From Phycisphaerae bacterium (GTDB lineage: Bacteria > Planctomycetota > Phycisphaerae > UBA1845 > PWPN01): a stretch of DNA of 64,000 nt. The position numbers and the translations under genes were made by a program. The DNA lies in contig JAGNEZ010000002.1 in assembly GCA_018003015.1 (NCBI GenBank), forward strand, positions 186,001 through 250,000. The letters are read 5' to 3'. Position 1 is the stretch's first letter, and each line of letters begins with the position of its first letter. The notes below the pieces were generated by a model. That model ran no database searches. It was not told where the DNA came from and worked only from the letters and a program-made list of their open reading frames with translations. Positions 48,067 to 64,000 of this stretch are shown piece after piece.

Positions 48067-48447
48067 ATCGCCCCTCCTGGTTCTGTTGACGCAGCCCGTC
48101 AGGCGGCCGCTTGGCGTCACTGTTCCGGACGTCTCTGAAAAGGCGTGGGGTTGCTTCCACCCGCTTTCAGAGCCTCCGAGTGTAAACTTGGGATATCTGT
48201 GGTTGAATGTCAAACGCAACCGGGAGCCGCCGAGAGAATTGGGGCATTCTCGAGCGTTGGTGTGGATTGTGCAGGTTATGAGGGCTCGCGGAACCCTGTC
48301 GTCGGGATGATCGTGGGGGGTCCGGCCAGCCGATAATGAGGACACGGCGCGTCGGGATCGGGCGGGTGCGGGGGGGGGGCTGATATGCGGACCGGAGTCG
48401 CTCGAGGCTCGGGTTTCCATCGGCCCGGCGACGCAGGTCACGAACCG
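48067..48447. other. intergenic region, no gene seen
   Basis: The frame of the pectate-lyase-like gene stays open upstream, but the extension is Arg/Ser/Pro-rich and has no ribosome site. A TTGACA occurs on the minus strand at 48213-48208, but no good -10 lies 16-18 nt on. No RNA gene or repeat was seen. Confidence 0.4.
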
Positions 48448-51400
48448 TCATCGGGCGGGAGGCTGTGCTCCGATAGGCCGCCCGTTCTCTCCCGCCGTTC
48501 TGAGCCGGCTTCTGGCTGGCAACTGGAACATCTCAATCGTCGGGATCAGTTCGCCTGACCTGATCCGGTTTCCGAATGCATTGAGCAGGGCGGGGTTCAT
48601 GTATTCGGTGGGTACCGGGCCCGACAATTGGACGTCTTGGGTGGTTGCCTCCAGGCTGTGTTGCTCAAGGCCCAGTTCCTGTTGGATGCGCCTCACGCCG
48701 CCCATGTCGCGTTCACGACGGCGGTTCAGTCCATAGCCGATGTATCGTGCCTCGTTGCCGGGGCCGAAGTAGAACGTATTGTAGTCGGATTCGGTTGGGC
48801 GCTTGGTGCAGACCATGGGGATGAAGTTGACCACCTTCTGTGGTTCCTGGCCGAAGAACAGGTTGTTCTTGACGACGACTCGCCCATCGAGGTTGAAGCA
48901 GTCGATCAGCGGCACATACCAGGTGTTGCCCGTCAGGGTGAATGCTCGGGTTTGCCGGGCGTTGGCGGCGTGGGCGAATCCGGTGATGACGCAGTTCTGG
49001 ATGGTGATGTGGTCACCGCCGCGAGCCACGATACCGTGGCCGTATCCGATGCCCCAGCCTGCCAGGACGCAGTTCTGGATCGTGACCTCGCCGCACCGGG
49101 CGAGGAACACCTGGCTGGAGCAGAGTCCCGCCCGGTCGCCGTAGGCCTTGTCCGCGAAACGTCGGATGACGAGTCCGTCGATGACGATCTGGTCCTTCCA
49201 GAAGAGGGCGATGGCGGCCGGCCGCAGGAATGTGCTTCCGTCCAGGCAGGCGCGTCCGGGTGATCGGGCCTTGAGTGTGATGGGGGCGTCCTGGGTTCCG
49301 GTGGCCGCCGGGGCGAACATCTCGTGGTAGATGCCGTCGAGCAGGACTGCCGTGTCGCCGGCTCGCACGCGATCGCTGACCGCGGTGAGGGTAGTAGGGG
49401 CCCGTTCGTCCAGGCCGGGATTGGCTTCGCTGCCCGTCGGGGCGACGTAGAACGTTCGGCGTGTCGGCTTCCACTCGGCGACCGTGGGTGTTTTGAAGGC
49501 CAGGGTCTGGCTTTCCGCTCCGCGCCAGCCGGTTCGGGGGGCGGCTGCCGCGTACGGTTGTCGGATGCTGTCCCGCCATGGGCGGTCGGGGATCACGATC
49601 TTGAACTGATACAACGTACCGGGTCTGAGATCATGCAGCGTGACCTGATGGTACAGGTCCCCGAACGAGTACTGTCGACCGTTGGCGGTCGAATTCGTTC
49701 CGTAGTGGATCTCGCTGTGTACGGGATGATCGGCGCTCCAATCCAGTGGTGTTCGCCAAGTGGCGTTCGACGTGTAAGGCGTCCACCAGGTGAGGCTGGC
49801 GGTCGTTGGCGTCACGTCGCGAAGTTGGATCTCGGCAATTTGAGGTTCGATCGGTTTGCTCGCGGTCTGGCCTGCTCCGATGTTGTAGCACAATTCGCCG
49901 GCCGCCACGCACGGCGAATCCGGCTCGATCGAGGCGAGGCTATCCGGATCCGACCATCGCGGTTCGGCCGCGAGGCTGTATCGATCCCCACCGGTCAACC
50001 TCTGCAAAGCCGTCAGGTCCTGGGCGGGTCGGCCGTTGACGATCGCCAGCGGGGGAGGGCAGGAGTAGTCGTTGTATTCGCAGAACAGGCCGCGGGTGTG
50101 ATCGATGCTGGTGTCCAGCGAGCGCCCGGCCGCGGCGTGCAGGATTGAGCTGGTGATTCTGACGTCTTTGGAGACGCCTCTCAGCCGGATTGCGGATCCG
50201 GTGGTGCTGGACACGCTGAGTCGACGGAGCCAGATGTCGGCTCCGTTCTCGACGGTGAGGGCATCGCCGGCTGCTGTGAGCAGGCGGCAGCGGTCCAGCC
50301 GGATATTCGTTGTGTCGCGGAGGACTGCGCCTTCCTTGATCCCGAGGTTGTCGACCCACACATGCTGCAGTCCGCTCAGATCGAGACGGTTGACGGAGAC
50401 GTTCGGTCCAAGGGTCCGCCCCCGGATCATCACCGGCCTCTCGGCTGTGCCGGATGTCTCCGGGCGCACCGGCTCACGGTACTCGCCCTCGAGCAGGTAG
50501 ACGGTTACGCCGGGACGGCATTCGCGCATCGCCCGGCCGGCGGTCTTGAAGGCCTGGTTGACGCTCAGTCCGCTGTTGCTGTCGTTGCCCGTCGGACCGA
50601 CGAAGAACACACTCGGCTCGAAGGGATGGGCGCCAAGATCGGCTCCGTCCGGTCCTCTGCCGCGGAACGGGCTGTCGGCCTGCAGGCGGTAGTCGAGGTG
50701 ATCCGGGGCCGCGAATCGCGGATCGCCCTGGTCAGGTCCGAAGAACAGGGTGTGCTTGCCCATCCATGGTTGGGGGCCTTGGGCCCAGAAACCCGGCGCC
50801 TGCAGGGTGTTGTGGTCTTCCCGGAGATCGTTTCCGAACGCGCCGGAATACCAACTGAAGTGGCTGCAGCCCACGGAGACGTTACGTACTGCAGATCTTT
50901 TTCCCTTGCTGGCCTTGAAGTCGATCCCGATCGCATGGTCCTTGACGATGTTGCCCGCGACCTCGCCATCCGAGGGCTGACCGTAGTTGCGGATGCCATA
51001 CATCTGGGCATTCAGGAGCGTGTTGTTGAGTATTCGCACGCCCTCGCTCTGCCCCGTGCAGTAGATCTGGGCGAGTTCGCCGTAACCCGGATTGAGATTC
51101 CCGATCAAGAGGTTGTCGCGAATCACGCATTTCCTGGCGTTGATGGTGATTCCGCCGCCGTTGAACAGGAATCCGCATCGTCGGATCTCATGCTGCTGGC
51201 CTGTGACCGACATGCCGAAGCCTCGACCCGAGTCCCGCATCTGCGTGGGAAAGAAGCCCTCGATCACCAGGCCGTCGACGTGGACGTACTCTCCGGTAAT
51301 CTCCACGCCATAGGCTGGGATGACGGTGGCGGCGATGACGTGCTGGTCGGGGGGCTGGCCGTCGCTGGTGTGGATGTACAGGATCTTCGCACGGGGGTCA

Positions 51401-51897
51401 TACAGGTGAGACCGCCTGAACTGGTCCATGTCGACCAGCGCAGGAGCCTCCAGATAGGCGGTTTGCGTGTCCCGCTCCAGGACTCGGTAGACGGGGCGAC
51501 TGCGGGGGATCGACCAGATGAAGCGCATGCCCTCGACCTTCCGGAAGCCCCTGACGATCTCATTTCCTCGGATGACAGAGAACTGAGGGATGGCTGCCCG
51601 GATGGTGATGGGCTTCTCGGCCGTGCCGGATCGTCGCATGGTGAACCGCTGGAGGTACTCTCCCGGGGCGAGGGTCAAGGTATCGCCGGGGGCCAGGCGG
51701 TCTGCTCCCTTCTGGATGGTGCGCAGGGCGGAATCGGGGCTTGTACCGCCGGTCTCGTCGTGTCCATCCGGCTTGACGAAGTACTCGGCTGCCGAGGCGA
51801 GGGGGGCCAGCAGGAGAAAGATAGTCAAGGCGGCCAACGGTAGACGGGCGGTCAGCTGTCCGGACCGGCCTGCCGCAATCGTGGTTCCTGGGGTCAT
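48448..51897 (-). CDS. secreted protein with three right-handed beta-helix modules
   Basis: A 1149-residue exported protein. After a signal peptide (cleavage near ASAAE, about residue 37) it has three homologous parallel-beta-helix modules, each opening with a DUF1565-like segment: YFVKPDGHDETGG (38-425), FFVGPTGNDSNSG (426-685) and FYVAPTGSEANPG (812-1149). An Fn3-like domain (686-785) sits between modules 2 and 3. Such proteins bind or cleave polysaccharides as lyases, epimerases or glycanases. No catalytic set was identified. The ATG at 51897 overlaps the upstream gene's stop as ATGA. Confidence 0.85.
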   Translation of the reverse strand: MTPGTTIAAGRSGQLTARLPLAALTIFLLLAPLASAAEYFVKPDGHDETGGTSPDSALRTIQKGADRLAPGDTLTLAPGEYLQRFTMRRSGTAEKPITIRAAIPQFSVIRGNEIVRGFRKVEGMRFIWSIPRSRPVYRVLERDTQTAYLEAPALVDMDQFRRSHLYDPRAKILYIHTSDGQPPDQHVIAATVIPAYGVEITGEYVHVDGLVIEGFFPTQMRDSGRGFGMSVTGQQHEIRRCGFLFNGGGITINARKCVIRDNLLIGNLNPGYGELAQIYCTGQSEGVRILNNTLLNAQMYGIRNYGQPSDGEVAGNIVKDHAIGIDFKASKGKRSAVRNVSVGCSHFSWYSGAFGNDLREDHNTLQAPGFWAQGPQPWMGKHTLFFGPDQGDPRFAAPDHLDYRLQADSPFRGRGPDGADLGAHPFEPSVFFVGPTGNDSNSGLSVNQAFKTAGRAMRECRPGVTVYLLEGEYREPVRPETSGTAERPVMIRGRTLGPNVSVNRLDLSGLQHVWVDNLGIKEGAVLRDTTNIRLDRCRLLTAAGDALTVENGADIWLRRLSVSSTTGSAIRLRGVSKDVRITSSILHAAAGRSLDTSIDHTRGLFCEYNDYSCPPPLAIVNGRPAQDLTALQRLTGGDRYSLAAEPRWSDPDSLASIEPDSPCVAAGELCYNIGAGQTASKPIEPQIAEIQLRDVTPTTASLTWWTPYTSNATWRTPLDWSADHPVHSEIHYGTNSTANGRQYSFGDLYHQVTLHDLRPGTLYQFKIVIPDRPWRDSIRQPYAAAAPRTGWRGAESQTLAFKTPTVAEWKPTRRTFYVAPTGSEANPGLDERAPTTLTAVSDRVRAGDTAVLLDGIYHEMFAPAATGTQDAPITLKARSPGRACLDGSTFLRPAAIALFWKDQIVIDGLVIRRFADKAYGDRAGLCSSQVFLARCGEVTIQNCVLAGWGIGYGHGIVARGGDHITIQNCVITGFAHAANARQTRAFTLTGNTWYVPLIDCFNLDGRVVVKNNLFFGQEPQKVVNFIPMVCTKRPTESDYNTFYFGPGNEARYIGYGLNRRRERDMGGVRRIQQELGLEQHSLEATTQDVQLSGPVPTEYMNPALLNAFGNRIRSGELIPTIEMFQLPARSRLRTAGENGRPIGAQPPAR

Positions 51898-52920: not shown

Positions 52921-52949
52921 TTGACGTTCGCCCAGGGGTCGATTATACA
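52921..52949 (+). promoter_or_regulatory. sigma70-like promoter of the PspA/AAA/ABC locus
   Basis: TTGACG at 52921-52926 and TATACA at 52944-52949 are 17 nt apart, one of the best promoter matches in the window. The predicted start near 52956 leaves a leader of about 100 nt before the ATG at 53056. There is no sign of a sigma54 box as used by enterobacterial psp. Confidence 0.65.
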
Positions 52950-53055
52950 GGAAAGGGTAGCGCAGTTCGTTACCTGTGGACGCGGGGGCGGCTCGCCGCT
53001 GCTGCGTCGCCCCCGGTGTGCTGGACCTGTTTGGATGGAAAGGCCAGGTGTCGAG

Positions 53056-53811
53056 ATGATCGCAGGCAAGCTGTGGCACGCTATCAAGGCTCAGATCAAC
53101 AAGATCGCGAACTTTTTCTGGACAGCCGACCCCATTGCCCAGATGCAGTACGAGTACGACTTGGCCGTCAATCAGCTGAAGGAAGGCCGGGAAGGCCTGG
53201 AGCAGTACCGGGGCCTGGTCGAGCGTGTCGGCCGGCAGGTTGCCGCGAACAAGGCCCACGTTGCCAACCTGGAGGCCAAGGTGAAGGCCTATCTTCAGGC
53301 GGGCGACCGGGAGTCGGCTGGCAAGTACGCCCTCGAACTGCAGAAGGCCAAGAAGGAGCTGTCTGAGAACGAGGCTCAGCTCAATCTTCATGAGGAGGCG
53401 TACAACAACAACCTGCTCAAGATCAAGCATGCCAGCGGCAAACTGGCTCAGGTGCGCGACAAGATTTCCAAGTATGACGCTGAACTGAAGATGAGCCGGG
53501 CCGAGGCGGAGATGGCCAAGCTCGCCACGGACTTCAACTTTGACGTGACCACGGATTTCGGCCAGATCGAGCAGGTGATCCAGGACAAGATCGGATTGAA
53601 TCGAGCGAAGGCCCGCGTGGCTGCCGATCTGTCCGGTGACGGGATTGCTGACATCAAGCAGGAGCAGGCCATGGAGAAGGTCATGGCCGACCAGGCTCTG
53701 CGCGACTTCGAAATCCAGGCTGGCCTGGTGACCCCGGAGACGGCCAAGGTGACGGACACGGCGAAGGAACTCGGCCCGGCGAAGGAGAAGCAGGTGATGA
53801 CCGATGAGTGA
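53056..53811 (+). CDS. PspA/IM30-like coiled-coil membrane-remodelling protein
   Basis: A 251-residue, almost wholly helical protein. An amphipathic N-terminus (residues 1-25, LWHAIKAQINKIANFFWTA) is followed by long coiled coils to about 170 (YRGLVERVGRQVAANKAHV, LELQKAKKELSENEAQL) and a shorter helical end. This is the PspA/IM30/Vipp1 (ESCRT-III-like) outline, in which the amphipathic helix binds stressed inner membrane. It is divergent, so the call is by architecture more than by motif. The ATG at 53056 was preferred to 53035. First gene of the locus, next to an AAA+ ATPase that could remodel it. Confidence 0.75.
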   Translation: MIAGKLWHAIKAQINKIANFFWTADPIAQMQYEYDLAVNQLKEGREGLEQYRGLVERVGRQVAANKAHVANLEAKVKAYLQAGDRESAGKYALELQKAKKELSENEAQLNLHEEAYNNNLLKIKHASGKLAQVRDKISKYDAELKMSRAEAEMAKLATDFNFDVTTDFGQIEQVIQDKIGLNRAKARVAADLSGDGIADIKQEQAMEKVMADQALRDFEIQAGLVTPETAKVTDTAKELGPAKEKQVMTDE

Positions 53812-53892
53812 GGGTCGGAGGAAGCGGCTGGACTGAGGATGTCGTTGCCTGCGGGAGGGACTTCGGCTTTCTGCCGAGCGGAGTGATGTTCC

Positions 53893-55740
53893 ATGACGCA
53901 GAATGCGCCCGTATCCCATTGCGACTCATCACTTGTGGCCCGTCCTTTCGATCTTCCTTCGTTCTTCCCTGCCTGGGCAAGGTCCCTGGCCGAGGCTTAC
54001 TTCTCCGGAACGACCTGTCTGTTCGTTCTGCACGGGAATGTTCATGATCTGATCCCGTTGTCGAACGACGAGAATGGCGGCTATTGCGGTCTGCCCGAGT
54101 TCCTGGCGGCGCAGGTGTTTGGATCATGGCATTTGGTCCTGCACTATGATCTGGGGCAGGGATTGCGGCCGATGAGTGGGGGCGATCCCGACCGTCTCAA
54201 GGAGATGGTTCAGTATTTGACTGCACGCATGGGCGAGCCGGCATCTTGGCCGCGCGACCCCGACAAAGTGCTCCTTTTGCTGGACGCGCTGATCGAGCGG
54301 AACCTGCTGGAGGATGATCCCGGTCGGCGCAAGAAGATCGCCGTGGTTCTGGATTATGCCCAGTACCTGGCGCCGGCTGGCGACCTGGGGGCGCTGGCCC
54401 GCGGGCAGGGCACGAATCTTGTCCGGATGCTGTCCTGGGCCCAGAATCCGTACATCAAGCGCATCAACGTCGCGTTCATCCTGGTGGCGGACAAGCTCTC
54501 CGAGGTGAACGACCGGCTGGTCCAGAGCCCTCATGTGGCCGCGATTGAGATTCCACTGCCCGACATCACGACGCGGGAGGCCTTTGCCCGGTGGGCGGCC
54601 GGCCAGGTCGATGCCGGCAAGTCCGGTTCGTCTCCGGTGATGGAGGCGCAGGGCTCGACGAGTGGTCCGCCGACGGGCCAAAACATGTCCCCGGCCGAGT
54701 TGGCCGTCATGTCCAATGGCCTGAGTCTGGTGAATCTCAACGTGGTCCTGTCCCAAGCCCGGCATGCGAAGCGGGGTGTGGATCCTGGGCGTTTCAAACA
54801 GCTCAAGAAGACCATGATCGAGCGGCAGTGCCAGGGGCTGGTCGAGTTCGTGGAGCCGCCGCACACGCTCGACTTGGTCACCGGCCAGGCCGCCGCCAAG
54901 CAGCGGCTGCGCGACGATGCCGATCTCATTCTGCACAACCGGCTGGAGGCGGCCCCGATGGGCTACCTGTTAAGCGGGCCGGTCGGCACGGGCAAGACAT
55001 TCCTGGCCGAGTGCTACGCCGGCTCGGTCGGCATTCCCTGTCTGAAACTCCGCAATTTCCGATCGAAGTACGTGGGCGAGACGGAGGGTAATCTGGAGAA
55101 CGTGCTGACCGTCCTTCGTTCGCTCGGACCGGTGGTGGTCATCATTGACGAGGCTGACGCGGCTTTGGGTAATCGCTCGGCGGAAGGTGACTCGGGCACA
55201 TCAAGCCGCGTATTCTCCATGATTGCCAGCCAGATGGGCGACACCCGCTATCGCGGCAAGATTGTCTGGATGCTGCTGACTTGCCGGCCCGACCTGCTTC
55301 CGATCGACCTGAAACGGCAGGGGCGGGCCGAGGTGCACATTCCGATGTTCTATCCGCAGGACGAGGCCGAGGTTCGGGAGATGTTCCTGGCCATGGCCCG
55401 GAAGAACAAGGTGGTCCTCAGACCTGAGACGCTGCCGCCGATCACCGCGCAGGGGCAGCTCAGTGGTGCGGACATCGAGAGCATCGTCCTGACCGCCAGG
55501 CGGAAGGCTCTCGGGGCCGGTCGAACGGAACTGGCCCAGACGGACGTCCAGGAGGCCTTCACCGAGTTCATCCCGTCAGCTCACGGTCTGGAGAAGGAGC
55601 TGCAGGAACTGGCGGCGGTGCTGGAATGTACCCAGCTGACGTTCCTGCCGCCCAAGTGGCGCGCGAGGGTTGCAGAGCCCGGTGGCCGGGCCCAGCTCCA
55701 GGAGCGGATGATGGCCATTCGAAGCCTGTTGAAGGACTGA
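53893..55740 (+). CDS. AAA+ ATPase with a degenerate first ATPase domain
   Basis: A 615-residue protein resembling the Ycf46-like AAA group. The C-terminal AAA+ core has Walker A GPVGTGKT (from about residue 361), Walker B VVVIIDEADAA (about 414-424), TCRPDLLPIDLKRQGR as sensor-1/Arg-finger region, and SGADIESIV as sensor 2. Residues 30-230 form an ATPase-like fold without a P-loop: LFVLHGNVHDLI stands where Walker A would be, and IAVVLDYAQYL resembles Walker B. It probably works as a hexameric motor. Directly behind the PspA-like gene, it may disassemble PspA polymers or act on the VWA protein. Confidence 0.85.
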   Translation: MTQNAPVSHCDSSLVARPFDLPSFFPAWARSLAEAYFSGTTCLFVLHGNVHDLIPLSNDENGGYCGLPEFLAAQVFGSWHLVLHYDLGQGLRPMSGGDPDRLKEMVQYLTARMGEPASWPRDPDKVLLLLDALIERNLLEDDPGRRKKIAVVLDYAQYLAPAGDLGALARGQGTNLVRMLSWAQNPYIKRINVAFILVADKLSEVNDRLVQSPHVAAIEIPLPDITTREAFARWAAGQVDAGKSGSSPVMEAQGSTSGPPTGQNMSPAELAVMSNGLSLVNLNVVLSQARHAKRGVDPGRFKQLKKTMIERQCQGLVEFVEPPHTLDLVTGQAAAKQRLRDDADLILHNRLEAAPMGYLLSGPVGTGKTFLAECYAGSVGIPCLKLRNFRSKYVGETEGNLENVLTVLRSLGPVVVIIDEADAALGNRSAEGDSGTSSRVFSMIASQMGDTRYRGKIVWMLLTCRPDLLPIDLKRQGRAEVHIPMFYPQDEAEVREMFLAMARKNKVVLRPETLPPITAQGQLSGADIESIVLTARRKALGAGRTELAQTDVQEAFTEFIPSAHGLEKELQELAAVLECTQLTFLPPKWRARVAEPGGRAQLQERMMAIRSLLKD

Positions 55741-55817
55741 GGGCCGTCGGACGCCGGTCCGACCCCGGTTCGGTCTCCTTGGAATCGTTCTGGGTTCGAT
55801 GAAATGAGGGCGATGAA

Positions 55818-56282
55818 ATGGCGACTACGAAGAAAGTGAAAAGGGCAGCCTCGAGGAAAGCCGTCGCCGCCAGGTCGGCAGGCAAGAAGGGGCCGGCGAA
55901 GGGCAAGGTCACCGCCAGGGGGAAGTCCAAGCCCGGCCCGAGGGCCAAGAAGACGGCCGGGAGGGCGGCCAAGGCTGCTCCGGCCAAGAGGGGATCCCGC
56001 CTGAGTTGGCTGGACGGTGCCTCCCACAGACCGCTGATCGACCGCTACGCCAGGCAGCTCCGCAGTTTCCTGGAAGCCGTGGCCGACGGCGTGATCGAGG
56101 AGCGCGAACTGGCTGCCCAGGAAGAGCGGCTGGTGAAGCTCATGAAAGAGGTGGAGCCCAGGCTCAATGACGCGCTGCACGCGAAAGTCACCGAGCTCCT
56201 GTGTGAGCTCACCGCGTACGACATCATGCAGATGATGCATGCAATGTGCGAGAACCGGCCCAAGAGCGTGTTCCAGGGTTGA
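55818..56282 (+). CDS. small protein with Lys/Ala-rich tail and helical C-terminal domain, function unknown
   Basis: A 154-residue protein. Residues 1-58 are a Lys/Ala/Gly/Arg/Pro tail (SRKAVAARSAGKKGPAKGK, RAAKAAPAKR) resembling histone H1 or AlgP tails. Residues 60-154 form a compact helical region (WLDGASHRPLIDRYARQL, EERELAAQEERLVKLMKEV, LCELTAYDIMQMMHAM). The basic tail could bind DNA, RNA or acidic phospholipids. It lies between the AAA+ and VWA genes and may be an adaptor. No family was recognised. Confidence 0.75.
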   Translation: MATTKKVKRAASRKAVAARSAGKKGPAKGKVTARGKSKPGPRAKKTAGRAAKAAPAKRGSRLSWLDGASHRPLIDRYARQLRSFLEAVADGVIEERELAAQEERLVKLMKEVEPRLNDALHAKVTELLCELTAYDIMQMMHAMCENRPKSVFQG

Positions 56283-56334
56283 CTCTGGATCCTCCCATGG
56301 GCCATGGATTGCGCGAAGGCGAGGAGGATGGGCC

Positions 56335-57195
56335 ATGAGACATGGCGGCTTGGGGCGCAGGTTTTTCCCGCGACGGCGGTGGACTGCGGGGTCGGACGTC
56401 AGCCGGGTTCATGTGGCGGGCATACGGGCCGTCATGTTCGTGGTGATCGTTGCCTTCATGGCCAAGTGGGTGCTCGGCGGCTGCGACGGCCGCCAGGTGT
56501 CACCGCCCCCGAGCAAGTCGGGAGTGGTATCGACCCAGGCACCTCCAGCCGGTGGTTCGACCATTCCCCTGCCGGAAGCCGAGCAGCGGGTGTGCACGGC
56601 CGTGGCGATCCTGATCGATACCTCGGGCAGCATGGAGCAGTCGGTCCGAGGCTCAACCGGCGGTTGGCAGCAGAAGTACGTCCTGGCTCAGGAGGCCCTG
56701 AAGCGGATTGTGGCTTACACGGCCCAATGGCAGAAGAACCACACTGACCGGCTTCTGAACGTGGGGATCTACCGTTTCTCCAGTTCACCGGTGCAGATCT
56801 TGCCGATGGGCGAATTCAGGGCCGATCAGGCCGACGCGGCGGTCAGCTCCATTGGTCGTCCGGGCGGCGGGACTGCCATTGGCGAGGCGCTGACTGCCGG
56901 ATTCAAGGCTCTCTACCAGTCCGGCTGCACGCGCAAGCATCTGGTGTGCATCACCGACGGCGAGAACACGGTGGGGCCGCGGCCGGATCGGATCGCTCAG
57001 CAGTTGTATGCCCAGACCAAGGGCGAGGTCGAGCTTCATTTTGTTGCGTTCGACACCTCGGCCAAGTACTTTGGTTTCCTGAACAGGGTAAACGGGCATG
57101 TGGTTGAAGCGGCCGACGGGGCCCAACTGCAGGCCAAGCTGTCTGAGATCTACGAGAAGCGGATCCTGGCGGAGCAGATGCCCGTCGAGAAGTAG
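56335..57195 (+). CDS. membrane-anchored von Willebrand factor A-domain protein
   Basis: A 286-residue protein with an N-terminal anchor (VMFVVIVAFMAKWVLGGC, about residues 33-50). The LGGC could be a lipobox, making it a lipoprotein. A Pro/Ser linker follows, then a VWA domain with the full MIDAS: D95-T-S-G-S99, the GGGTAIGEAL threonine, and CITDGEN. VWA domains bind protein ligands via Mg2+, and AAA+/VWA pairs (MoxR, CbbQ/O, BchD/I) act together, so partnership with the AAA+ at 53893 is plausible even though this VWA domain faces the periplasm. The ATG at 56335 has GAGGAGG upstream. Confidence 0.85.
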   Translation: MRHGGLGRRFFPRRRWTAGSDVSRVHVAGIRAVMFVVIVAFMAKWVLGGCDGRQVSPPPSKSGVVSTQAPPAGGSTIPLPEAEQRVCTAVAILIDTSGSMEQSVRGSTGGWQQKYVLAQEALKRIVAYTAQWQKNHTDRLLNVGIYRFSSSPVQILPMGEFRADQADAAVSSIGRPGGGTAIGEALTAGFKALYQSGCTRKHLVCITDGENTVGPRPDRIAQQLYAQTKGEVELHFVAFDTSAKYFGFLNRVNGHVVEAADGAQLQAKLSEIYEKRILAEQMPVEK

Positions 57196-57268
57196 CGGGT
57201 GTGGAGACGAAGGCGAGTGGAACGGCGGGCGTTCGGCCCGCAAGGTCCAGCAACATGGAGGTCAAGTC

Positions 57269-59002
57269 ATGGCAGGACAACCCAAGGCACCGTTCTTTGT
57301 GGCGCTGGCCCTGGTGGTCGCCGCGCTGGTGGGCTTCGCGATCTACCGGAGCGATCTCATCGCCCCGCGGGAGAGGAAGGCCGACACGGGCGGCCCCATG
57401 CAGTTGCCTCCGGCCCAGCAGGTCGAGAACGCCAGTGACGCCAGCGGCGTGACCACGGTCAAGGAATACACCTTCAAGGCCTCGGAGCGTCTGCCGGAGG
57501 TCAAGGGTACCAGCGCGTACAAGCCACTGGTGGACAACACCGTCCGCTTCGCCCTGAATGTTTGGGCTGGCTGGGCTCCGATCATTCTGGCCAATGAAGG
57601 CTTCAAGCCCAACCAGGTCTGGAAGACGGCCGACGGGCAGGAGTTCAAGGTCGAACTTGTGCTCATCGACAACCCGGTGGCCATGCGCGATGCTTATGCT
57701 TCCGGCGACGTGCATATAGGCTGGGCCACGCTGGACATGGTTCCGCTGTTCGTCGAGGGCTTCGTCGATTCCACCGGCAAGCCTCGTGACAGCCGGGTCA
57801 TGCCCCGCATCTACCAGCAGGTGGACTGGTCCAACGGCGGCGACGGCATCGTGGTCCGCGACGCCATCAAGACGGTGGCCGATCTTCGCGGCAAGCAGCT
57901 GGTGCTGGCTCAGAACTCGCCGTCGCATTACTTTGCCCTGAACATGCTGGTGGCGGGCGGTCTCCAGCCCTCCGAAGTCAACATGGTTTTCACCGAGGAT
58001 GCGTTCCAGGCCGCTGCGGCATTCAACACCCAGAAGGATATCGCCGGTGCCGTCTCCTGGGCGCCGGACATCTACAATCTCGAGAAGGTTGCGGGCAACC
58101 GGCTGCTGGTGACCACGGCCACGGCCAACAAGCTCATCGCCGACGTCTGGTTTGCCCGAGCCGACTTCGCCAAGGATCATCCGGGCATCTGCGAGGGGAT
58201 TGTCCGGGGCATCTTTGACGCCATGGTCACGCTCAAGGATGAGGCGGCCAGAAAGCACGTCGCGGAGCTGATGGCCCAGGGGTACAACATTCCTGCGTCC
58301 GACGCCCTGAACATGCTCGGCGACGCCCACAGCACGAACTGGGCCGAGAACTACCAGTTTTTCCGCAATCAGAACAATCCGGCCAACTTCGAGCGGATCT
58401 GGAATCAATCCTACTACCTGTATCGCAAGATCGGGGCGGTCAGGAATCCGCAGGTGCCGTTCGATCAGGTGATGGACTCCTCGGTCATCGAGAAGCTCGG
58501 CCAGGAAGAGAAGTACTCCTCCCAAAAAGACGAGTACAAGGTCCAGTTCACTCCGACCACGCCGGGCAGCATCAAGGCCGAGGACGAAATCCTGACCAAC
58601 ACCGTCTTCATTCACTTCTTCCCCAACAGCTGGGAACTTCGGAAGAAGGTGGCCAAGAAGCGGGAAGGCAAGGACGTCGAGGAGCTGTACGACCCCAACG
58701 TGGATTTCATTCTCGAGGACATCGCCAAGCTGGCCGCCCAGTTCGGTGCCGCCCGGATCATCATTCAGGGACACACCGACGGCTCGATGCGGAATCAAAT
58801 TCCCGCCACAATGGTCAAAGAGCTCTCGCTGCAGCGGGCCAACGCGGTCAAGGAAGAACTGGTCAACAAGTTCAAGATGGATCCCAACCAGTTCGCCGTC
58901 GAAGGAGTGGGCTGGGACAAGCCGGCCGACGCCAATGACCCCGACAACCACGCCAAGAACCGCCGGGTCGAGGTCAAGGTCTACCCGGCGGAGAAAGGAT
59001 GA
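57269..59002 (+). CDS. NitT/TauT-type substrate-binding protein fused to an OmpA peptidoglycan-binding domain
   Basis: A 577-residue fusion. A hydrophobic N-terminal helix (residues 8-25) without a clear cleavage site is likely a membrane anchor. Residues about 85-440 form a type II periplasmic binding fold of the NMT1/TauA kind (WAGWAPIILANEGF, GDVHIGWATLDMVPLF, VLAQNSPSHYFALNMLV, AVSWAPDIYNL). The C-terminal 110 residues are an OmpA_C domain with HTDG at 502-505, LSLQRANAV and NRRVEV near 564-569, the residues that contact diaminopimelate in peptidoglycan. The permease and ATPase genes follow. Such a fusion would tie an ABC transporter to the cell wall. ATG at 57269, GGAGG upstream. Confidence 0.88.
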   Translation: MAGQPKAPFFVALALVVAALVGFAIYRSDLIAPRERKADTGGPMQLPPAQQVENASDASGVTTVKEYTFKASERLPEVKGTSAYKPLVDNTVRFALNVWAGWAPIILANEGFKPNQVWKTADGQEFKVELVLIDNPVAMRDAYASGDVHIGWATLDMVPLFVEGFVDSTGKPRDSRVMPRIYQQVDWSNGGDGIVVRDAIKTVADLRGKQLVLAQNSPSHYFALNMLVAGGLQPSEVNMVFTEDAFQAAAAFNTQKDIAGAVSWAPDIYNLEKVAGNRLLVTTATANKLIADVWFARADFAKDHPGICEGIVRGIFDAMVTLKDEAARKHVAELMAQGYNIPASDALNMLGDAHSTNWAENYQFFRNQNNPANFERIWNQSYYLYRKIGAVRNPQVPFDQVMDSSVIEKLGQEEKYSSQKDEYKVQFTPTTPGSIKAEDEILTNTVFIHFFPNSWELRKKVAKKREGKDVEELYDPNVDFILEDIAKLAAQFGAARIIIQGHTDGSMRNQIPATMVKELSLQRANAVKEELVNKFKMDPNQFAVEGVGWDKPADANDPDNHAKNRRVEVKVYPAEKG

Positions 59003-59065
59003 TCGAGCCACCAGGACAGGGGTGAGGGAGGATCTGGGTGACGACACGAAAGAGCGGGTCGGGCG

Positions 59066-60103
59066 ATGAGTGAACAGCCTTCTTCCGCGGCCTCGTCGGC
59101 AGCGGCGGAGCCTGGGCCGGCGGCAGTTGCCCCGGGGGCCGCCGGCGTCGGGGTCTTGCGCCCGATCGGGTGGCTTTTTCGTGTGCGCGGTGAGCCGACA
59201 CTTTGGCAATCGGTCCTTTTCGGGGCCCTCTGCCTAGGCATCTGCCTGGGCGTCTGGTGGCTGGTGACCCGCGGCGAGGCGGAAAGCCGAACCGTGGGGC
59301 CGGCGGTCCTGCCGAGCCCGGGGGAGACTTTCGCCACCTTCGACACGCTATGGTTCGACCGGGCCCTGACGCGCAACACGTTGGCCAGTCTGCGGCGCGT
59401 GGCTCTGGGTTTCGGCCTGGCCACGCTGATCGGCGTTCCGTTGGGGGTGTTGTGTGGATGTTTCTCCTGGTGCCAGGCCTTCTTCGCCCCGCTTTCGATC
59501 TTCGGTCGGAACATACCCGTCGCGGCCCTGATCCCGCTGACTTTCTCGCTCTTCGGGATCGGCGAGCAGCAGAAGATCATGTTCATCTTCATTGCCTGTG
59601 TCGCCTTCATCATCTCGGATTCCGCCCAGGCGGTCCGCGACGTGGACATGCGCTACGTGGATACCGCCCACACGCTCGGCGCGCGAAGGCGGCAGATCAT
59701 CATGAAGGTCCTGGTGCCGTTGGCCTTGCCGGACATCTTCAATTCTCTGCGCCTGCTGTTCGGGCTGGCGTTCGGGTACATCATGCTGGCTGAACTGGTG
59801 AAGTTCGGCGGTGAGAGCGGCGGATTGGGCGACATCATCATCACATCGCAGCGGCGCGGACCGAAGGAGCACATCCTCTTGGTGCTGATGATCATTCCGG
59901 TCGTGGCCCTGGCGATCGACCGGATCCTGTATTGGGCCCAGCGAGAGCTGTTCCCGCATCGATACGGGGGTTTCGGCTTCTTGCACGCGGGGGTGCGCTT
60001 CGTCGTGCATCTGTGGGAGGACCTGAAGGGCTTGTTCTGGCGCTCCCACCGGCGGGTTGAGCTTCCTGTCACCTCGGTTTCGGCCCCGGAGAAGAAACCA
60101 TGA
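59066..60103 (+). CDS. ABC transporter permease, NitT/TauT family
   Basis: A 345-residue inner-membrane permease of the BPD_transp_1 type. After an Ala/Pro-rich cytosolic extension (1-45) there are about six hydrophobic segments. DTAHTLGARRRQIIMKVLVPLALPDIF (about residues 200-226) is the coupling-helix EAA motif that docks on the ATPase. The pattern resembles SsuC/TauC/NrtB, transporters of sulfonates or nitrate, but here the binding protein carries an OmpA domain. The stop overlaps the next start as ATGA. Confidence 0.9.
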   Translation: MSEQPSSAASSAAAEPGPAAVAPGAAGVGVLRPIGWLFRVRGEPTLWQSVLFGALCLGICLGVWWLVTRGEAESRTVGPAVLPSPGETFATFDTLWFDRALTRNTLASLRRVALGFGLATLIGVPLGVLCGCFSWCQAFFAPLSIFGRNIPVAALIPLTFSLFGIGEQQKIMFIFIACVAFIISDSAQAVRDVDMRYVDTAHTLGARRRQIIMKVLVPLALPDIFNSLRLLFGLAFGYIMLAELVKFGGESGGLGDIIITSQRRGPKEHILLVLMIIPVVALAIDRILYWAQRELFPHRYGGFGFLHAGVRFVVHLWEDLKGLFWRSHRRVELPVTSVSAPEKKP

Positions 60104-61041
60104 GTGATCCTCTGCTCGCCCCGGTCACCGCCGCACCCGCCGCGGCCGCGCTTGGCACTGCGTTGAGAGGGTTCTCGGCCCAGCCGGTCGGTGTGGGCCA
60201 GGTACTACCCGCCGTCCGCAAGCCGGAGGAACTGACCCGTCCCCACGTGGTTCAGTTCAACCGGGTGACGAAAACCTACAACCCCGGCCAAGCCAACGAG
60301 TACACGGCCATCACAGAGGTGACCTTCGTGGTCGAGGATCTGGCAAACAAGGGCGAGTTCATCTGCGTTCTTGGGCCCAGCGGTTGTGGCAAGAGCACGA
60401 TTCTTAGGCTCATTGCCGGCTTGGAGCCGCAGCATCCCGCGACATCGGGCGAAGTCTTGGTGTTGGGCCGGCCGGTGACGGAGCCCGGGGCGGACCGCGG
60501 GATGGTCTTCCAGGACTACACGAGCTTTGACCATCGCACCGTTCTGGAAAACGTGACCTTCGGCCTGGAGTGCCAGGGCATGCCCCGGAGGGAGCGCCAG
60601 GGGCTGGGCCGGGAATGGGTCAAACGCGTCGGGCTGGACGTGGACAAGGATGCCAACAAGTACCCCCATGAGCTCTCCGGTGGCATGCGTCAGCGCGTGG
60701 CCATCGCCCGCACGCTGATCCTGGAGCCCCGGATTATCCTCATGGACGAGCCTTTTGGGGCCCTTGACCCGATGACGCGGATGAACATGCAAGACCTCCT
60801 CCTCGGCCTCTGGCGATCGGTGGAAGCCACCGTCTTCTTCGTGACCCACTCCATCGAGGAAGCGGTTTTTCTGGGTGACCGGGTCTACGTGATGAGCAAC
60901 TCACCGGGTACAATCCTCAAGGAGTTGACCATCGAGCCGTCGGACCGGCCGTCCCGGGAGATGCAGCGCGAGCCGCGTTTCCAGGAGACGGTGTTTTTCA
61001 TTCGGGATCTGATCAGCAAGCTCGAGGAAGGTCGCGACTAG
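60100..61041 (+). CDS. ABC transporter ATP-binding protein, NitT/TauT family
   Basis: A 313-residue ABC ATPase with Walker A GPSGCGKS (residues 92-99), Q-loop MVFQDYTS, signature LSGGMRQR, Walker B IILMDEPFGALD and the H-loop His in FFVTHS. A roughly 45-residue Ala/Pro-rich N-terminal extension precedes the core and parallels the extension of the permease. It powers the transporter whose permease overlaps it by 4 nt. Confidence 0.93.
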   Translation: MSDPLLAPVTAAPAAAALGTALRGFSAQPVGVGQVLPAVRKPEELTRPHVVQFNRVTKTYNPGQANEYTAITEVTFVVEDLANKGEFICVLGPSGCGKSTILRLIAGLEPQHPATSGEVLVLGRPVTEPGADRGMVFQDYTSFDHRTVLENVTFGLECQGMPRRERQGLGREWVKRVGLDVDKDANKYPHELSGGMRQRVAIARTLILEPRIILMDEPFGALDPMTRMNMQDLLLGLWRSVEATVFFVTHSIEEAVFLGDRVYVMSNSPGTILKELTIEPSDRPSREMQREPRFQETVFFIRDLISKLEEGRD

Positions 61042-61051
61042 GACGGCTAGC

Positions 61052-61918
61052 ATGCGCTTTGCCAAGTATCTCAAGGTCGCCTTCCTGAACCGCTGGAACC
61101 TGCTGGTGACCGCGGGAGCCATAGGTTTCGCGATGTTGAGCGGCCAGGCCGACATCTGGGTGCCGCTGGTCCTGGCCGGCGAAGTGACCTACCTCGGACT
61201 GCTGGCCTCCCATTCGCGTTTCCAGGCCTACGTGGACGCCCATGAAGCCAAGGTGTTCCGGCAGCAGGGGACGGACACGGCTCAGCAGACCTACCGGACG
61301 ATCATCCAGTCCCTGCCGCCCAAGTCGGTCGAGCGATTTCGTCTTCTTCGTTCGCAGTGCCTCGAGCTCCGCCAGATCGCCCAGCAGCTCAAAGGGCCGG
61401 AGGCGGTCGAGCCCGCGGCCATCCTCGAGGAGTCCCAGGGGGCCGGCCTGGATCGACTTCTGTGGATCTACCTGCGGATGCTCTACACCCAGTATTCCAT
61501 CGAGCGCTTTCTGCAGAAGACCAGCGAGGCCCAGATCCAGAGGGATATCGCCAGCCTCGAGGAGCGGCTCAAGGCCGTAACCGGGGTTAGCGACGAAGTC
61601 CAACGGCAACGATTCGCCAAGGCCCTGGAGGACAACCTTCAGACCTCCCGGGATCGGCTGGCCAATTACCAGAAAGCAAAGGCCAATTGCGAACTGGTTC
61701 AACTGGAACTGGAACGGCTCGAGAACAAGATCCGCTCGCTCAGCGAGTTGGCGGTGAATCGCCAAGAGCCCGACTTCATTTCGGCTCAGGTGGACCAGGT
61801 GGCGTCCAGCATGGTTCAGACCGAGCGGACGATGAATGAGCTGCAATTCGCCACGGATCTCGGGATTCCTGATGAGACCGTTCCCGAGCTTCTGCGGACC
61901 GAGAAACTGCTCCAGTAG
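61052..61918 (+). CDS. two-TM coiled-coil membrane protein, function unknown
   Basis: A 288-residue protein with two closely spaced N-terminal hydrophobic segments (LLVTAGAIGFAMLSG, WVPLVLAGEVTYLGLLA; residues about 16-55), then a long helical, coiled-coil cytoplasmic part (IQRDIASLEERLKAV, LVQLELERLENKIRSLSEL). The layout is like XpaC-type (5-bromo-4-chloroindolyl phosphate hydrolysis) membrane proteins, but I see no sequence motif that proves it. It starts 10 nt after the ABC ATPase and closes the locus. It may link the transporter to the PspA/AAA+ proteins inside the cell. Confidence 0.8.
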   Translation: MRFAKYLKVAFLNRWNLLVTAGAIGFAMLSGQADIWVPLVLAGEVTYLGLLASHSRFQAYVDAHEAKVFRQQGTDTAQQTYRTIIQSLPPKSVERFRLLRSQCLELRQIAQQLKGPEAVEPAAILEESQGAGLDRLLWIYLRMLYTQYSIERFLQKTSEAQIQRDIASLEERLKAVTGVSDEVQRQRFAKALEDNLQTSRDRLANYQKAKANCELVQLELERLENKIRSLSELAVNRQEPDFISAQVDQVASSMVQTERTMNELQFATDLGIPDETVPELLRTEKLLQ

Positions 61919-61960: not shown

Positions 61961-61980
61961 AGAGTATGCGGCAGTGTGGG

Positions 61981-64000
61981 ATGAAGCAGGCGGCCCTTGT
62001 GCCCCTTTTCTTGGCGGTCTTATCGGTCGTCAGTTCGACGGCTGCCCTGCAGGCGGGGGGCGGAGATGCGGGGGGCCGGTCTCTGGGGGTGCCTGCCGTC
62101 CGAGCCGCGCGGTCCAGGCGTATGGCGGCCGCCGCCCAATCGGCCAAGTCCGTCGCCTGGCAGCGAGCCAAACAGCGGGGCCTGCCGGTGCGATGGCATG
62201 CTGGTGGCAGAACGTATGAACTCATGGCTGCCCCGGACGGCCGCCCCATGCTGGTCGTCGCCACCAGCAACGTGAACGCGGCCATCTCCACGGCAGCCGT
62301 CGAAATCCGCAACATCAGTCCGTACAACCTCAATGGCGAGGGCCTGTCGATCGGCGTCTGGGACGGTGCGGCCGTTCGGGCCACGCACCAGGAGTTCGGG
62401 ACACGGGTGACCGTCCGGGATGTGGTTGCCGCTGCCGATCACGCCACGCACGTCAGCGGTACGATCGGGGGAGCGGGCGTGACTGCGGCGGCGCTGGGGA
62501 TGGCCTCCGGCGTGGCCATCGATTCCTACGACTGGACGAACGACGTCGCGGAGATGACCTTGCGGGCGATGGCCGAACCGGGGGAGGCGGGAACGCTCCA
62601 GGTCTCCAGTCATTCCTATGGGTACCTGGCCGGTTGGTCACACAGCACGACGCCGCCTCGCTGGTACGGGACCTGGGGTCATCGCGAGTCGGACAGCTTT
62701 GGGCAGTATGACAGCCTCGCCCACGACTGGGACATGCTCTGTCACGATGCCCCGTACTTCCTGCCGTTTGTCGCTGCGGGCAATGATCGGAATGAGAAAG
62801 CTCCTTCGTCGGGCAGCTCGTTCCAGTACGAGAACGGCGGTGACTGGGTGACCAAGACCTACGATTCGGCCACCGATCCGTACAACGACGGGTGGGACAA
62901 CGGAGGATACGACACCATCTCCCTCGTCGGCAACGCCAAGAACATTGTGACCGTCGGTGCGGTGAACGACGCGGTGGCGAGTGGTGCACGTTCGCTGGCC
63001 GCTGCGACCATGACCACATTCAGTTGCTGGGGACCGACCGACGACGGTCGGGTCAAGCCGGATGTCGTGGCTAACGGCGCGAGCCTGTATTCCTGCACCG
63101 CAGCATCGAACGAAAGCTACGCCAGCATGAATGGAACGAGCATGGCCACCCCCAACGCCAGTGGGTCGGCCATACTCCTCGTCCAGGACTACGGCCTACT
63201 CTTTCCTGGGCAATACATGCGGTCCAGCACGCTGAAAGGTCTGCTGATCCACACGGCCGACGATCTCGGCGATGCGGGGCCCGACTACCGAACCGGCTGG
63301 GGATTGGTGAACGTCAAGACTGCTGCGGATTACCTCAGGAGTTGTCGTGATATCCCTGTCGCCCGTGGTCTGGTCGAGGGCCTTCTGACCGGTACCCATG
63401 CTGTGGATACTTACCGCGTCACCTGGGATGGTGTGCACAGCCTGAAGGCCACGCTCTGCTGGACGGATCCGCCGGCGGCAGTCGTGACCGGACTGGACAA
63501 CGCTGCGGTTCGCCTGGTGAACGACCTCGATCTCCGAATTGTGGTCCCGGCTGAGGCGGTCGTTCACCTGCCCTGGATTCTCGATCCGACCAGCCCCTCG
63601 GCCGCTGCCACCACGGGCGACAACACCCGCGACAACGTCGAGCAGGTGGTTGTTGCCAAGCCGACATCAGGCTACTACACGGTCAACGTGAGCTACAAGG
63701 GGGCGTTGACCGGCGGGCAGCAGTACTACTCGCTGCTGATCAGCGGTTCAGGTCCCGGGCCGACCGCGGCGGTGACAGTGGACCGCAAGAGCTATCGGTG
63801 TGCGGACACCGTCGGCGTCACGCTGCTTGACTCCGGCCTGCGTGGCCAGGGCGCGCAGGTCGTCACCCTGGTCGTGGGTGAGGACGCAGAGGAGGTGATG
63901 GTTCAGGAGACGCCACCCGACAGCGGCGTGTTCGCCGGCTCAATCTCGACTGTGCAGGGTGCACCCAGCGGCGGAAGCGGTATCCTCGAGGTGAGTGATG
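61981..64000 (+). CDS. secreted subtilisin-like serine protease (S8), 3' end outside window
   Basis: At least 673 residues, open to the window edge. A signal peptide (MKQAALVPLFLAVLSVV, cleavage near ALQAG) is followed by a short pro-region and an S8 catalytic domain. The triad is D128 in IGVWDGA, H154 in HATHVSGTIGG and S387 in NGTSMATPNASG, with the oxyanion Asn in VAAGND. The domain order (catalytic unit, then jelly-roll-like segment TLCWTDPP, then Ig-like repeats) resembles KP-43-type subtilases. HATHVSGT replaces the usual HGTHVAGT. An in-frame ATG at 61966 is an alternative start. No strong ribosome site is visible for either. Confidence 0.85.
   Translation, partial: MKQAALVPLFLAVLSVVSSTAALQAGGGDAGGRSLGVPAVRAARSRRMAAAAQSAKSVAWQRAKQRGLPVRWHAGGRTYELMAAPDGRPMLVVATSNVNAAISTAAVEIRNISPYNLNGEGLSIGVWDGAAVRATHQEFGTRVTVRDVVAAADHATHVSGTIGGAGVTAAALGMASGVAIDSYDWTNDVAEMTLRAMAEPGEAGTLQVSSHSYGYLAGWSHSTTPPRWYGTWGHRESDSFGQYDSLAHDWDMLCHDAPYFLPFVAAGNDRNEKAPSSGSSFQYENGGDWVTKTYDSATDPYNDGWDNGGYDTISLVGNAKNIVTVGAVNDAVASGARSLAAATMTTFSCWGPTDDGRVKPDVVANGASLYSCTAASNESYASMNGTSMATPNASGSAILLVQDYGLLFPGQYMRSSTLKGLLIHTADDLGDAGPDYRTGWGLVNVKTAADYLRSCRDIPVARGLVEGLLTGTHAVDTYRVTWDGVHSLKATLCWTDPPAAVVTGLDNAAVRLVNDLDLRIVVPAEAVVHLPWILDPTSPSAAATTGDNTRDNVEQVVVAKPTSGYYTVNVSYKGALTGGQQYYSLLISGSGPGPTAAVTVDRKSYRCADTVGVTLLDSGLRGQGAQVVTLVVGEDAEEVMVQETPPDSGVFAGSISTVQGAPSGGSGILEVSD

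Follow-up and report, generated by a model that had tools for sequence, protein, structure and literature searches.

Why do genes for a PspA protein and an AAA+ ATPase stand in one run with those of an ABC transporter whose substrate-binding protein ends in an OmpA domain? The run lies on the + strand at 53056-61918 of the window (the whole 64,000-nucleotide stretch analysed, positions 186,001 to 250,000 of contig JAGNEZ010000002.1, from a Phycisphaerae genome of 6.86 Mb in 144 contigs) and comprises eight open reading frames (ORFs) with small gaps or overlaps between them, which encode PspA, an AAA+ ATPase, a small helical protein, an exported VWA protein, a substrate-binding protein fused to an OmpA domain (SBP-OmpA), an ABC permease, an ABC ATPase and a coiled-coil protein (TMCC). 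The ORFs and their Pfam matches agree with the original prediction, an earlier note on this DNA, of eight consecutive genes on the same strand. We give an even chance to the reading that these genes encode an ESCRT-III/Vps4-like membrane-remodelling machine coupled to a cell-wall-anchored ABC transporter.

Conservation of gene content and order

Homologous loci were the best 80 of 169 relatives in a scan of genome contigs with an SBP-OmpA profile, and so were chosen through one gene. The closest are in planctomycete (Phycisphaerae) metagenome-assembled genomes (MAGs); no relative was found among viral contigs. The gene order in Planctomycetota is PspA-AAA-small protein-(VWA)-SBP-OmpA-permease-ATPase-TMCC, with 43 seven-gene loci lacking the VWA gene and six eight-gene loci possessing it. 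Acidobacteria have a rearranged but complete set, (VWA)-PspA-SBP-OmpA-permease-ATPase-TMCC-AAA-small protein. Thus, order has changed while content has stayed the same, which points to a link of function and not just of position. SBP-OmpA of more divergent loci is still accompanied by PspA, permease, ATPase and TMCC, and often by AAA+. When seven parts are compared pairwise across 56 loci, their divergences are correlated (r 0.64-0.96; AAA-TMCC r=0.957), a result that is supportive only, because shared descent contributes to it. One contig titled Deltaproteobacteria (L051, JABFSC010000394.1) has the gene order of planctomycetes and an SBP-OmpA with 75% identity, and is either from a misbinned MAG or the product of transfer.

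Co-occurrence across genomes

Since adjacency can be inherited, linkage was also tested without it, by whole-genome counts in 392 sampled planctomycete genomes with a strict and a broad set of SBP-OmpA defined by thresholds. AAA+ is present in 30 of the 32 genomes with strict SBP-OmpA (Fisher p=8e-28; 23/25 by genus) and in 39 of the 41 genomes with TMCC (p=7e-39). Among 31 relatives, a strong SBP-OmpA match occurs in exactly ten genomes, the same ten that have a strong AAA+ match. The parts also co-occur when they are unlinked: in the single-contig genome G337, TMCC is encoded at 0.34 Mb, PspA-AAA-small protein at 0.57 Mb and SBP-OmpA-permease at 8.5 Mb, and in G015 about 230 kb separate PspA-AAA-small protein from VWA-SBP-OmpA. 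Together with the conserved and rearranged order in two phyla and the correlated divergence, this co-occurrence supports the earlier claim of a single system.

The association is asymmetric, 24 of the 54 AAA+ genomes being without strict SBP-OmpA and 16 without broad SBP-OmpA (broad set, Fisher p=4e-32), and G407 and G160 have PspA-AAA-small protein with no transporter next to it. This suggests that PspA/AAA is the core of the system and that the ABC/SBP-OmpA part is an add-on depending on it. The asymmetry also bears on the possibility that coupling runs in the reverse direction, PspA and AAA+ only servicing the transporter through assembly, repair or membrane organisation at the site of a specialised importer, with neither ligand nor wall exerting any regulation. 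Such a role would explain why SBP-OmpA is seldom found without AAA+ and why the binding domain and the ABC proteins keep the motifs expected of a working importer, but several genomes have PspA-AAA-small protein without any SBP-OmpA match, so that these proteins have work independent of the transporter; we consider the reverse direction unlikely.

PspA and its C-terminal tail

The first gene (53056..53811, +) encodes a 251-aa PspA/IM30 protein of the ESCRT-III superfamily (Pfam PF04012 PspA_IM30, 5e-10, above cut-off). PspA occurs almost only with this system within this order and class: the operon's PspA is the sole PF04012 protein found in this genome (G000) and in five relatives with the system, and, of 32 genomes in the same order or class with neither AAA+ nor SBP-OmpA, 31 yielded no such protein. 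Among the tested genomes of its class, only G172 has PspA but not the AAA+ system; its three canonical PspA_IM30 genes lie in a stretch of about 10 kb (G172:C89; L213, L221 and L225).

A C-terminal motif, K-x-[LIM]-G, on PspA is new here. In the window it reads P227...K237-E-L-G-P (53734..53778, +), of which P227, K237, L239 and G240 are invariant in 44 aligned PspAs. Across the 80 loci the tail is a short extension that resembles P-[ED]-T...K-[ED]-L-G-[PS], and [KR]x[LIMV]G is found in 66 of 67 PspA tails versus one of 457 background windows. PspAs of AAA+ genomes that are too divergent for good alignment mostly have K-[ETQ]-[LIM]-G, as a rule with P after it. The motif is missing from the PspAs of two related VWA-bearing loci (L143 and L198) and from canonical PspAs, namely those of L132 and L133 and the three of G172, which has no AAA+; the canonical PspA of L212 has a loose match to the pattern inside its coiled coil, with no proline. 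ESCRT-III polymer subunits carry short conserved tails, the MIM motifs, and by analogy with these the motif in the PspA tail is a candidate site at which AAA+ or its small partner would recognise PspA.

The AAA+ ATPase and the small helical protein

The AAA+ ATPase (615 aa, 53893..55740, +; Pfam AAA PF00004, 1e-22) has an intact classical AAA domain with an aromatic pore loop in its C-terminal half. Walker A, Walker B, the pore loop KYVGE with its Tyr/Phe, and arginines are conserved across homologues, and the best relatives in the PDB are AFG2/Cdc48. The N-terminal half lacks a usable P-loop, the P-loop lysine being missing (VLHGNVHDL). The gene of the small helical protein (55818..56282, +) adjoins the AAA+ gene in nearly all loci. 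Its conserved domain of about 92 residues (56004-56279) lies behind a basic tail, which had been taken as characteristic of this third protein; the tail is present here, but is long only in close relatives of the window, and most other loci encode a protein of about 96-100 aa in which the tail is very short or absent. The family matched nothing in Pfam and has no relative in the PDB by sequence or by fold.

The exported VWA protein (56335..57195, +; Pfam VWA, 1e-11) has an intact MIDAS (DTSGSM), a possible lipobox (LGGC) and a single N-terminal hydrophobic segment, on account of which it is probably periplasmic. Its gene is missing from most homologous loci, including most of the intact ones, and the protein is therefore a dispensable accessory. 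The argument of the original prediction from AAA+/VWA pairs that remodel partners does not hold, and a MoxR-like AAA+/VWA chaperone pair was rejected, since the AAA+ is of the classical PF00004 type (not AAA_3) and resembles Cdc48/AFG2 rather than MoxR, the VWA protein is exported and so does not share a compartment with AAA+, and its gene is mostly absent.

SBP-OmpA and the ABC transporter

SBP-OmpA (57269..59002, +; Pfam NMT1/phosphonate-binding and OmpA, 3e-13) consists of an N-terminal membrane anchor (hydrophobic segment at residues 7-25), an NMT1/SsuA-type substrate-binding domain and a C-terminal OmpA domain (58694-58960). Residues S188, G190, D192, W264 and D292 of the substrate-binding domain, which we infer to be placed in the ligand pocket, are invariant down to 26% identity, as are D504 and R523 of the OmpA domain. 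The latter align with D271 and R286 of AbOmpA, the Asp and Arg that bind diaminopimelate. As judged from these invariant residues, both the ligand domain and the grip on peptidoglycan appear to be under selection, and the prediction of a peptidoglycan-binding OmpA domain is upheld at the level of its binding residues.

The permease (59066..60103, +; Pfam BPD_transp_1, 1e-19) is of the taurine/nitrate/sulfonate type, with SaoP/TauC/NtrB-like NCBIfam matches below their cut-offs, and its gene overlaps by 4 bases that of the ABC ATPase (60100..61041, +; Pfam ABC_tran, 5e-28), in which Walker A, the signature LSGGMRQR, Walker B and the H-loop are intact. For the nearest curated models of the transporter (urea, taurine, sulfonate), scores are far short of cut-off. 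Plain import is unlikely to be all that the transporter does, in agreement with what had been proposed. A literature search for NMT1-OmpA binding proteins returned nothing relevant.

Some genomes contain additional SBP-OmpA proteins. G145 has a tandem pair of genes within one PspA/AAA locus (G145:C281; L145, 8463-12005) and a third, more divergent copy elsewhere, without PspA. A further group, at about 110-155 bits to the profile (L144, L146, L147, L148, L149 and L150), has no recognisable PspA or AAA+ nearby, and may put the SBP-OmpA fusion to a separate use.

The coiled-coil protein TMCC

The last gene (61052..61918, +) encodes TMCC, for which AlphaFold2 predicts, with moderate confidence (pLDDT 72.6), a hydrophobic helical hairpin at residues 14-53 followed by long helices. 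The hairpin fits the earlier description of a protein with two transmembrane segments, but its hydropathy is below the usual threshold and the transmembrane assignment is uncertain. TMCC belongs to no Pfam family. Kinship with ESCRT-III or with PspA as a paralogue found no support, as profile comparison with PspA was negative and Foldseek found nothing below E 0.001; a second fold search returned BAR/F-BAR proteins and designed bundles with Z up to 10, as expected of any helical bundle.

In Acidobacteria the TMCC gene lies between the ABC and AAA+ genes and overlaps the latter by 4 bases. Being the closest genetic companion of AAA+ and placed between these two groups, TMCC is proposed to couple the ABC complex to PspA/AAA. 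The same closeness would fit an AAA+ that acts on TMCC or on the permease as a quality-control or activation chaperone, PspA being only a co-expressed membrane protectant: AAA-TMCC is the strongest coupling in both divergence and co-occurrence, G091 has TMCC-AAA-small protein without an adjacent pspA, and the C-terminus of TMCC (61880-61918) has a weak P-x-x-L-L-like end among homologues (PELL, PAIL, PPxLLREEA) that is possibly a second recognition tail. However, PspA-AAA occurs without a neighbouring TMCC in G407, G160 and G337, and the tail motif of PspA is conserved better than that of TMCC, which makes a chaperone of this kind improbable.

Promoter and surroundings

The run had been placed behind one strong promoter and begun at 52921, which is in fact the -35 element of a promoter-like site, TTGACG-N17-TATACA (52921..52949, +); comparison with 67 homologues puts the pspA start most likely at the ATG at 53056. 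A generic promoter scan of the locus did not flag the site because its rule requires T as the last -10 position. Nevertheless, 10 of 65 homologous loci have the pattern TTGACN-N16-18-TATANN ahead of pspA, where shuffled sequences give 0.02, and an internal gene used as control is preceded by it in 0 of 75 cases; a sigma-70-type promoter ahead of pspA is therefore credible. Terminator-like sites across the eight genes are no more numerous than expected by chance. A single credible promoter, and genes that are separable in some genomes, would also be compatible with an operon shared, for expression only, by a stress PspA and an ordinary importer of small molecules. Uncoupled parts of this sort are very improbable, given co-occurrence that persists when the genes are unlinked, content that is kept while order is shuffled, and a PspA of a special tailed type.

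Upstream of the operon are a large cell-surface polysaccharide cluster (22106-43125), with genes for an epimerase, an O-antigen ligase (Wzy_C), several GT4 glycosyltransferases, asparagine synthase, a hexapeptide transferase and a polysaccharide deacetylase, and two very large - strand genes (45292-51897) encoding proteins of 1049 aa, with an fn3 domain, and 1149 aa. Downstream is a subtilase gene (61966-63999, +) that is not conserved as a neighbour beyond the same genus.

Proposed mechanism

From gene content, domain motifs, conservation and co-occurrence we infer the following physical contacts, role of the tail motif and direction of coupling. PspA would polymerise on the inner leaflet, and AAA+, with the small helical protein, would recognise its C-terminal K-[E/D/T]-[L/I/M]-G motif and thread PspA subunits through the aromatic pore loop, so that the polymer is recycled in the manner of Vps4. 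SBP-OmpA, anchored in the inner membrane and gripping peptidoglycan by its OmpA domain, would deliver ligand to its ABC partner, and TMCC would link the ABC complex to PspA/AAA. With the transporter as input, the ligand or the state of wall and membrane may set where or when PspA is assembled and removed. In its most specific form, a dedicated bacterial ESCRT-III/Vps4-like pair in which AAA+ removes PspA subunits via the C-terminal motif under the control of a peptidoglycan-anchored ABC complex, itself a sensor of ligand or of the distance between wall and membrane, the proposal is possible, though on balance doubtful.

Several points weigh against a remodelling machine of this kind. A profile comparison of the two halves of AAA+, with alignments of low diversity, detected no similarity between them, and AAA+ has no Pfam match to an MIT domain. 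The co-occurrence tests treat genomes as independent although they are related, many being incomplete MAGs, and AAA+ is absent from 8 of the 46 genomes with broad SBP-OmpA, mostly those with divergent SBP-OmpAs. PspA of other bacteria has intrinsic NTPase activity (PMC11746142), so that a motor is not obligatory.

Comparison with known systems

The finding is not new in outline, since Ravi et al. 2024 (PMC11237479) published the core of the gene neighbourhood and the link between remodelling and transport. In that paper PspA is encoded with a two-domain AAA+ whose N-terminal domain is called an inactive AAA copy, a description that the comparison of the two halves did not confirm here, and longer operons add an ABC ATPase, a permease and SBP-OmpA (e.g. 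OGG56892.1); genes for PspA, AAA+, the ABC ATPase, the permease and SBP-OmpA are together here also. The longer operons include, too, a Snf7-like protein with a transmembrane segment, which TMCC could be, although its profile and fold comparisons did not show this; ATP-dependent remodelling linked to solute transport is suggested. The main text has no VWA protein, and the small partner, the tail motif, co-occurrence counts and modularity were not found in the passages compared, although the supplements might list some of the parts. The present analysis adds the extra parts, the co-occurrence statistics, the PspA tail motif and the near restriction of PspA to the system.

The TauABC/SsuABC importers have binding proteins, permeases and ATPases of the same families, with ABC motifs that are likewise intact in this locus, but the binding protein here is membrane-anchored and fused to OmpA, and matches are far below all curated cut-offs. 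The classical Psp response (PspF-PspABC, LiaIH) shares a PspA homologue, which here is divergent and carries the motif tail; by Pfam, neither PspB nor PspC is encoded by the eight genes and two flanking genes, and no PspF-type sigma-54 activator by the eight genes, whose AAA is of the PF00004 type.

PspA is homologous to ESCRT-III according to the literature (PMC8281802). As in the ESCRT-III/Vps4 (Cdv) systems of archaea and eukaryotes, the gene of an ESCRT-III superfamily polymer lies beside that of a classical AAA with an aromatic pore loop, and the polymer subunit has a short conserved tail; unlike those systems, the motor here has no MIT domain and looks Cdc48/AFG2-like, and a transporter is attached. 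A tailed PspA clade that is nearly always found with a specific AAA+ offers a direct test for a bacterial Vps4-like partner, and the system ties this possible partner to cell-wall attachment and transport. Co-inherited across two phyla, the eight genes are a candidate, open to testing, for what in bacteria would correspond to the ESCRT-III/Vps4 machine.
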